From Rhodospirillaceae bacterium (GTDB taxonomy: Bacteria > Pseudomonadota > Alphaproteobacteria > Bin65), in assembly GCA_028819475.1 (NCBI GenBank), contig JAPPLJ010000008.1:62001-126000 (forward strand): a stretch of DNA of 64,000 bases, read 5' to 3'. The translations under genes and the position numbers were made by a program. Positions 24,193 through 25,993 of the stretch are shown one piece after another. The notes beneath the pieces were generated by a model. That model was not told the origin of the DNA and made no database searches. It saw only the letters and a list, made by a program, of their open reading frames with translations. The stretch's first letter is position 1. Each line of letters starts with the position of its first letter.

Positions 24193-24655
24193 GGTTTCAC
24201 CTTTGTTTCCCCGGTCTGTACGAGGCAATCGGCAGCCCGCACACCGGCGCTACTGATAGTAGACCGGAAGACCGAGCGCTTACAGAGCGCCGGTATTGGC
24301 GGAAATCGGAATCCTGTCCCGTTTGAGGGCCCTGTCGCCACAACGTGTCGCGCCGCGCCCGCAACCAAGCCTTTCCGTAGTCGAAGGATCGATCGGCCGA
24401 CGGTACGCCGCCCCTTATGGCAGCGTTCGAGAGGCCGTCAAGCGCGGGATGCGGCGGGATTGGCGCGGCTCGCGCCGGCGTGAACGGTCGCCCAGAAATC
24501 GCCGGCTCCGGCAGGTCCGGCCGCCCCGATTTCATCCCGCGGTAGCGGGCGCCGAAGCGCACCGGATTTTCGGCGGCATGCCTTGAAATTTCTGTAATAT
24601 TCCCTATTTTCGGTATTCGTCCCCATTTACCCGGCGGCGACACGCCGGCTGCCTG

Positions 24656-24681
24656 CATGACGAATCATGACATTTCATGAC
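24656..24681. repeat. CATGAC repeat, copy 1 (three phased hexamers)
   Basis: CATGAC occurs at 24656, 24666 and 24676, exactly 10 bases apart, so the three face one side of the helix. The last two form the unit shared with the other two copies (ATCATGACATTTCATGAC). Confidence 0.7.
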
Positions 24682-24867
24682 ACGCGCAAAGCCCTCCCTT
24701 CCGTCATTTCGACCGAAGCCCCTGATTCGATCCGGGACGAGGCGAAGAAATTCTTCCCGCTCGGCGATTCGGTCCAGGTTCAGCGCTGGAAAGATATCTC
24801 CGCTCCGAATCCCTGCGGGACACTCCGGTCGATATGACTGGTGAAGGCGGCAGGAGCGCCGCGGCCG

Positions 24868-24885
24868 ATCATGACATTTCCTGAC
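24868..24885. repeat. CATGAC repeat, copy 2 (one base changed)
   Basis: ATCATGACATTTCCTGAC; the second hexamer is CCTGAC. It keeps the 10-base spacing and lies 204 bases after the corresponding hexamer of copy 1. Confidence 0.65.
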
Positions 24886-24964
24886 AAATCTCCGTTTTCT
24901 TCTCGCGCCATCCCGGACGGCGCGCAGCGACGATCCTCAGCCGCAAGGAGACCGGACATACAGG

Positions 24965-24982
24965 ATCATGACATTTCATGAC
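24965..24982. repeat. CATGAC repeat, copy 3
   Basis: ATCATGACATTTCATGAC, identical over 18 bases to the core of copy 1. It sits 78 bases before the ATG of the alpha/beta hydrolase at 25061, a position suited to transcriptional control of that gene. Confidence 0.7.
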
Positions 24983-25060
24983 GCATCCACACCCCACGAA
25001 GCTGCGCCATTCCCGCCGGTGTCCGTTGACCGACCGGCCGGGACGGTCTAGCCGGATGCC

Positions 25061-25993
25061 ATGAATTTCTCGATCCATCCGCCGCCGGCGCTGGTTCCGC
25101 CCGAGCCGCGCGAAATCCATACCCTCGCCCTGACGGACGGCGCCACGATGATCCTGCGGCGCCACGGCAACCCGGACGGACCGCGGGTCGCGCTCAGCCA
25201 CGGCAACGGAATGGCGATCGAGGCCTACTACCCGTTCTGGCGGCTGATGCTGGCCGACTACGACGTCATCCTGTTCGACACCAGAAACCACGGGCACAAT
25301 CCGCCGGACGGTGTGGAGAACCATAACTGGCGCCAGTTCCGCGACGATTTCGAAACCGTGCGATGCGCCATCGACCGGCTGTTCGGCGCCGGGCCGGTCG
25401 CGGCCGTCTTCCATTCCATGTCGGGCATTTCCGCCCTGCTCCAGACCCGGGCATTCGGCGAGCGCTGGTCGCCGCTGATCCTGGTCGACCCACCGATCTT
25501 TCCGCCGCCCGGCCATGCCCTGCAACGAACCCAGACCTTTCACATGGAAGATATGGAGGCAATCGCCCTGCGCCGGCCCGACCGGTTCGGCGACCCCGAA
25601 GAGCTGGCTGCCGTGCTGCGCAAGCGGCCGGCCTTCCGCCGCTGGCTGCCAGGCACGTATGAACTGTTCGCGCTGGCGACAACGCGCAAGACGGACGACG
25701 GCTGGGTGCTGGCCTGCCCGAAGAGGCTCGAGGCGAAAATCTTTGCGGGCAATCTCGACCCGACGATCTGGCCCGAAGTCGGTACGATGCCCGGCGACAT
25801 CGCAGTGGTCGGCGCGGATGTGACGCTGCCGAAGGTTCAGCCTCCCGCCCTCCTCGGCCGGGCCCTCGCGGAAGGACATGGCCTGCCCTACACCATGATT
25901 TCGGATTGCACCCATTTCCTGCAGGTCGAGCGGCCCGAGGCCGTCTGGCAGGCTGTCGAGGCCTTCTTCCGCCGCTTCGGCCATGCGGCCTGA
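25061..25993 (+). CDS. Alpha/beta hydrolase
   Basis: A 310-residue protein of the alpha/beta hydrolase fold. The oxyanion region SHGNGMAIEAYYPFWR and FDTRNHGHN fit the core strands. The nucleophile elbow reads FHSMSG, with Ser preceded by His as usual, but the flanking glycines of GHSMGG are Phe and Ser. The catalytic His is likely in SDCTHFLQVERPEAVW. It is a stand-alone gene preceded by the phased repeats at 24656-24982. Esterase, C-C hydrolase and lactonase activities are all possible. Confidence 0.83.
   Translation: MNFSIHPPPALVPPEPREIHTLALTDGATMILRRHGNPDGPRVALSHGNGMAIEAYYPFWRLMLADYDVILFDTRNHGHNPPDGVENHNWRQFRDDFETVRCAIDRLFGAGPVAAVFHSMSGISALLQTRAFGERWSPLILVDPPIFPPPGHALQRTQTFHMEDMEAIALRRPDRFGDPEELAAVLRKRPAFRRWLPGTYELFALATTRKTDDGWVLACPKRLEAKIFAGNLDPTIWPEVGTMPGDIAVVGADVTLPKVQPPALLGRALAEGHGLPYTMISDCTHFLQVERPEAVWQAVEAFFRRFGHAA

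Follow-up and report, generated by a model that had tools for sequence, protein, structure and literature searches.

Dispersed CATGAC arrays in 10-base phase as candidate pac-like sites of a multi-copy TerS-like protein family in an alphaproteobacterial genus

We describe a family of intergenic DNA arrays in which CATGAC hexamers recur on one strand at an exact 10-base period. The arrays are dispersed through the genomes of an alphaproteobacterial genus of sponge symbionts, conserved in their hexamers, associated with standalone genes for TerS-like (Terminase_2) proteins, and matched in two other genera by arrays of different motifs beside relatives of these genes. The reading we favour, with somewhat better than even confidence, is that the arrays are pac-like binding sites of this multi-copy family, and the sequence evidence indicates that the TerS-like protein is probably their binder. 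Small terminases and pac sites have so far been known from phages; the family described here is seemingly chromosomal, with many standalone genes and many scattered conserved sites, and its motif appears to have changed between genera with the 10-base phase kept. A literature search, conducted partly on titles and the beginnings of abstracts, found no such system of TerS-like genes and scattered arrays.

The window analyzed here is a stretch of 64,000 bases, positions 62001-126000 of contig C8 in a genome of 4.48 Mb and 72 contigs (G000). Its cluster comprises three forward-strand arrays. The first (CATGACgaatCATGACatttCATGAC, 24656..24681) has CATGAC at 24656, 24666 and 24676, exactly 10 bases apart; the second (CATGACatttCCTGAC, 24870..24885) pairs CATGAC at 24870 with CCTGAC at 24880, with a degenerate hexamer preceding them at 24860; the third (CATGACatttCATGAC, 24967..24982), with CATGAC at 24967 and 24977, is conserved in the congeneric genome G001. 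These coordinates bear out the first-pass annotation of this DNA, which had described three clusters between 24656 and 24982, the first with three CATGAC hexamers in exact 10-base phase, and its placement of them was also correct: independent ORF calling leaves 24193-25060 gene-free, and 78 bases separate the end of the third array from the ATG of an alpha/beta hydrolase gene at 25061. A REP-like palindromic spacer of type B (24703..24839; arms GTCATTTCGACCGA at 24703-24716 and CCGGTCGATATGAC at 24826-24839), with relatives at other clusters, and a partial spacer, a type A half (24907..24937), lie between the arrays. The half spacer belongs to the part shared with G001, where the alignment, of 98.1% identity over 213 bases, starts within it. 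A promoter-like site, TTGAAA-16-TATTTT (24583..24610, forward strand), reads into the cluster (one found against 0.3 expected from shuffles) and looks, on visual inspection, like the CTTGNAAT..CCTATAT promoters found at TerS-like genes. Rfam gives a single match, isrG, which scores 12 bits where the cut-off is 100 and is due to chance. All six window matches of a two-hexamer pattern with up to two mismatches are located in the 24656-24982 stretch, and the other 63,120 bases hold no hexamer pair with up to one mismatch on either strand; the count of six is by itself not unusual, being compatible with a shuffled window (mean 4.4, with 28 of 100 shuffles reaching 6).

Counting the motif genome-wide, as the first-pass annotation had proposed, yields 61 matches of the three-hexamer pattern TCATGACATTTCATGAC with up to two mismatches in G000 and none of the reversed control. 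Array anatomy was analyzed in 28 stretches fetched around these matches, plus the window. Same-strand CATGAC pairs in the fetched loci number 82 at 10 bases, 32 at 20 and 6 at 30, with 0 to 3 at any other distance between 6 and 60. Pho boxes are direct repeats with 11-base spacing, and the arrays share with them GTCAT-like half-sites in direct repeat but differ in their 10-base spacing; exact pairs at 11 bases are absent, in agreement with the earlier judgment that the site is a different one from the Pho box or a variant. Together, the fetched loci and the window hold 60 arrays of two to five hexamers in 32 intergenic stretches, 30 of which contain no opposite-facing arrays; in the remaining two (L046 and L056) the opposite-facing one is the same near-palindromic site read in mirror image, with overlap. 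Pairs with one mismatch occur inside called genes at three loci (L045, within a TerS-like gene, L047 and L049), one array overlaps a called gene start (L040), and at one fetched locus (L039) the later criteria recognize no array.

The linkers between hexamers are A/T-rich (73.5% and 92.4% A+T over 86 arrays, against 34-37% beside the arrays), and the spacers between arrays are palindromic REP-like modules common to different clusters. Similar palindromes without arrays occur in 24 further intergenic pieces of the fetched loci, and the window's 36 other intergenic pieces have none. REP/BIME sequences and rhizobial intergenic mosaic elements are likewise intergenic mosaics with palindromic modules, but the arrays are unidirectional phased direct repeats for which palindromes serve only as spacers. 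One recurring spacer module (L058, L041, L055, L106 and L120) contains the palindrome AGACCGGTCT, which we take to be TetR-operator-like, and a Shine-Dalgarno-like GGAGGATACCGCC before an array. Of 46 clusters from G000 and G001, a set in which some loci recur, 17 have a LexA-type box no more than 250 bases upstream of their first array and none has one downstream, so that many clusters sit just after a promoter.

Across the 143 genomes searched, the three-hexamer pattern is confined to one genus at high copy, with 66, 69, 95, 70 and 51 matches in G001 to G005 at the same tolerance, none in a further congener (G006), and 0 or 1 in four other family members and in each other genome of the class. 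None of the genomes studied is closed. Among named public genomes, the exact 26-base array occurs only in metagenome-assembled genomes titled Rhodospirillaceae or Alphaproteobacteria bacterium (CO36386bin_9, SB0661_bin_7, Spongia_Bin9, bin65 and p16x44bins.53), of which bin65 is a bin from the sponge Aplysina aerophoba (PMC5649159). A loosened pattern, CNTGAC.., matched at least 120 stretches of IMG/VR, once each, and is therefore not specific.

Twenty G001 cluster loci, picked from places matching the pattern plus the hydrolase locus, were compared with G000. In ten, both flanks match a single G000 cluster locus; three match two G000 contig ends and two match on one side only; the G001 hydrolase locus (L121) is joined to the flank of a different G000 cluster, and four loci have no syntenic match among the fetched G000 loci. 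Array number differs at six of the ten loci matched on both flanks, and the units that were gained or lost start and stop at arrays. A check for insertion sequences and MITEs placed the junctions of these differences at arrays and revealed no inverted ends in the alignments. Among the four loci with no syntenic match, L107 is a synteny break relative to G000, and at L120 an island of about 5.7 kb in G001 corresponds to a 24-base convergent gap in G000; this variable island (L120:2466-8146, G001 C61) encodes an IetA-like AAA protein and a WYL regulator and ends at an array cluster. Mobile elements were also seen at two G000 clusters: an IS1595-type element lies within an array at L046:3337-4985 (C36), flanked on both sides by TCATGACA (an 8-base duplication), the G001 array being uninterrupted, and at L056:5819-6832 (C67) a transposase gene of the IS110 family separates two array stretches.

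Sequence divergence separates the two components of the arrays. In syntenic alignments of exact G000 arrays with G001, hexamers differ at 6 of 421 positions and linkers at 20 of 169 (a further 17 positions in hexamers and 11 in linkers were aligned to gaps), compared with 221 of 2464 positions in flanks within 60 bases and 6356 of 131,944 in all else. Defining the arrays from G001 instead gives 4 of 408 for hexamers and 23 of 168 for linkers, with no gaps in either. Divergence is hence 8 to 14 times lower in hexamers than in the intervening linkers, a contrast that points to selection on the DNA.

Two genes beside G000 arrays encode Terminase_2 proteins (E values of 6e-11 and 4e-10, over the curated cut-off) that also match PHROG_51, 'terminase small subunit' (7e-12 and 1e-12), and whose nearest PDB match is the SF6 TerS DNA-binding domain 2cmp (E 0.002). 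Standalone Terminase_2 matches number 4, 5, 3, 4, 5 and 2 in G000 to G005, with 22 of the 23 passing the cut-off, and the profile finds none in the arrayless G006. Each of the six array-bearing species thus has two to five matches and the arrayless one has none, a co-distribution in which the arrayless side is a single genome. G006, in addition to having no arrays and no TerS-like genes, has no LexA_DNA_bind match. Examination of 22 of the 23 copies (G004:C79 was left out) revealed arrays on the gene's strand at 20 of 22 loci and on the reverse strand at none, with 0 of 17 background loci positive. The TerS-like stop codon falls inside the array at eight loci, and at eight others the array follows or overlaps the end region of the gene; four loci have only an internal degenerate array and two have no array. 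At L144, a truncated TerS-like ORF of 97 aa ends in an array. The helix-turn-helix residues S62, A63, R64, Q65 and G67 do not vary among 16 copies whose identity otherwise falls as low as 39%. An exact LexA-type box, GAACN7GAAC, precedes 11 of 20 TerS-like genes (two copies are cut off) and also lexA in six of six genomes. In five species (L143, L146, L144, L142 and L134) a TerS-like copy with its array is followed by CATGACATTTTCGATGG or a close form of it, and in G000 the next gene after this copy is, by eye, mnmG-like.

A profile built from 16 TerS-like copies extended the search to other genera of the family, retrieving 1, 3, 6 and 3 genes in G007, G008, G009 and G010, respectively, and again none in G006. 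Wider loci were fetched for 12 of these 13 genes, from two other genera, and ten of the 12 contain a 10-base triple with up to one mismatch on the gene strand, built on motifs other than CATGAC: AAAGCC in G008 and G010, AAAGTAGG in G010, GTTGAC in G008, and CCCCAACA, CCCCACA, GCCACA and GCAACA in G009. The triple occupies the last codons of the ORF in two cases, lies 36-74 bases past the stop in three and in another three falls inside the ORF, in its final 89-265 bases; in the two others, both G009 copies, it is inside the part encoding the helix-turn-helix. The thirteenth, a TerS-like fragment at a contig edge in G007 (L299), has no such triple. In a first set of eight loci, exact triples appear at period 10 in three loci and at period 12 in one, with none at the other periods from 7 to 20; allowing one mismatch, period 10 is found in five loci and other periods in 0-3, and 17 background loci yield no period-10 triples.

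Arrays also surface in these genera when sampling is blind to the genes. In 345,781 bases of G009, TGTTGC arrays occur at three places and CCCCACA or ATGTGG arrays at three (L307, L309 and L368), while 253,856 bases of G008 contain one AAAGCC array and 49,174 bases of G010 none. In the first G009 sample, triples with up to one mismatch number nine at period 10 against 0-3 at other periods; the G008 sample has three at period 10 against 0-3 at others, which is not commoner than period 17, also with three. An exact LexA-type box precedes only one of the 12 TerS-like genes outside the genus, and SOS control is therefore not general. In other families, TerS-like loci L156-L158 have no 10-base triple. 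A further alphaproteobacterial family (G104) has six TerS-like genes at dispersed places, preceded by a palindromic promoter, TTCCTAGGACTATA (L155, L159, L160 and L161); its TerS-like loci have no exact array. Four near-identical copies share an AGGGAA-like 10-base triple with one mismatch, which the low-complexity filter removed and which is treated as weak.

The first-pass annotation had regarded the phased direct repeats as a candidate site for cooperative protein binding, a suggestion in keeping with the exact phase and with hexamers being kept while linkers drift. Were the arrays pac-like sites, each hexamer would be engaged by one helix-turn-helix of a TerS oligomer, the exact one-turn spacing setting two to five hexamers along one face of the DNA and the A/T-rich linkers perhaps aiding its bending round the protein. 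TerS-like genes bear an array in or just past their 3' end, as phages bear pac in or beside terS, and dozens of free arrays, the window cluster among these, are distributed between palindromic spacers across intergenic space. Binding might then mark DNA for packaging by a helper phage, serve an SOS-linked chromosomal role or accompany selfish spread.

Several known systems share parts of this arrangement. Phage satellites (PICIs) carry their own terS, and like them the present system has terS apart from a complete phage and a link to SOS; unlike PICIs, the TerS-like loci examined have no island gene set and the arrays are scattered. Phage P22 reportedly has pseudo-pac sites in the Salmonella chromosome, which are likewise pac-like sequences in a host chromosome, but the sites described here consist of several units, are conserved by selection and occur together with TerS-like genes borne by the host. 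According to PMC4737164, TerS displays its helix-turn-helix domains in a ring, single DNA-binding domains of SF6 TerS show little sequence specificity in binding, and the direct repeats of SPP1 pac span promoters and the start of terS. The phage TerS/pac system (Terminase_2, PF03592; SPP1/SF6) has in common with ours a TerS-type helix-turn-helix, direct repeats in or beside terS and motifs that differ among relatives, whereas here the genes are standalone and multi-copy, dozens of arrays are free in the chromosome, the PF03237 search pointed to no large-terminase partner, and the array is mainly at the 3' end of the TerS-like gene and not at its start as in SPP1. Repeats in or beside terS are present at 20 of 22 loci in the genus and 10 of 12 elsewhere, the window cluster itself not being among them. 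Phased hexamers facing a ring of helix-turn-helix domains would offer natural material for the study of how TerS reads DNA.

Other explanations deserve weighing against the pac-like one. The arrays could be operators of a transcription factor with a large regulon, TerS-like genes being just some of its targets; the conserved phased hexamers and the upstream position of LexA-type boxes speak for this, but arrays keep no fixed direction relative to flanking genes, five of the 32 stretches have convergent neighbors, TerS-like stop codons fall inside arrays and the TerS-like link recurs in other genera with different motifs, and we consider it unlikely, though not negligible. Dispersal and the lack of fixed orientation likewise leave unsupported the first-pass proposal of a response-regulator site serving the hydrolase: among genes to the right of the 32 stretches, 18 run with the arrays, 11 against and 3 are unknown. 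The hydrolase gene (25061..25993, forward strand; Abhydrolase_6, E 2.3e-13) appears to be a neighbor outside the array system. Its orthologs have upstream arrays in four of six species (G000, G001, G003 and G005) and none in G002 and G004, and a promoter-like element read from the sequences, TTGACC..TCTAG, stands right before the ATG in all six, with or without arrays (GTTGACC..TCTAGCC at 25025..25053, forward strand, in the window). The annotation had named a dispersed element devoid of positional preference as what would undo its proposal; dispersal is what we find, together with a preference for intergenic space and TerS-like 3' ends. A chromosome-organizing system, in which a nucleoid-associated or partition-like protein recognizes dispersed intergenic sites, would agree with arrays that are dispersed, intergenic and selected and with the array-bearing TerS-like copy that adjoins mnmG in several species; with some clusters missing at the orthologous place between G000 and G001 and array numbers changing, we hold it to be very unlikely.

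Two further explanations dispense with a binding protein. The arrays could be functionless relics of a spreading TerS-like 3' end, or of a MITE-like derivative, kept by copying or recombination, as the mosaics of common modules, the variable array numbers and the truncated ORF ending in an array would lead one to expect; copying or gene conversion would however shield linkers too, and the hexamer-linker contrast weakens this account to the point where we think it improbable. Alternatively, the arrays could be short ORFs (ATG ACG AAT CAT GAC ATT TCA TGA, or MTNHDIS-stop), conserved as peptides and some with Shine-Dalgarno-like leads, in which successive hexamers supply the start codon, His-Asp and the stop codon. 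In this frame, which is also the one in which TerS-like ORFs end, the most frequent substitution, of CATGAC by CCTGAC at hexamer 3 (31%), is silent. Against this, the His and Asp wobble bases are near-invariant (100% and 97% of 108 arrays, values biased by arrays having been found through CATGAC similarity), the codon-bearing linkers drift freely, and the tails HDES, HDIS, HDNS and HDKS vary with the linker; on this substitution pattern we rejected the MTNHDIS peptide, leaving the explanation with hardly any probability.

Returning to the pac-like reading, a more speculative extension is that SOS-induced, host-borne TerS-like proteins mark dozens of chromosomal pac-like sites from which the motor of a helper phage packages and spreads host DNA, the whole forming a scattered gene-transfer system in which protein and site co-evolve genus by genus. 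We regard this combined proposal as doubtful; if packaging were involved, it would give sponge symbionts a gene-transfer route not described before. The one large-terminase family searched, PF03237, has no match in G000, G001, G002, G005 and G006, one over the cut-off in G004 and one below it in G003, and the GTA_TIM tail gene is missing from all seven genomes, with a positive control in Caulobacter; with PF03237 nearly absent and no GTA_TIM, these searches point to no packaging partner. The GTA_TIM result also leaves a gene transfer agent of the RcGTA type unsupported. No relative of the TerS-like protein was found in 50,697 phage records, and IMG/VR contributed one relative at 31%, beside a TerL-like ORF (L288). 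At its end, a single IMG/VR contig (L122; 4538 bases, 41% G+C) has an exact array, CATGACagaaCATGACatttCATGAC; a second 10-base triple (TAATGG, 146-171) lies about 120 bases from this CATGAC array, and a portal-like ORF and a large terminase (PHROG_2, 9e-45) come further along.
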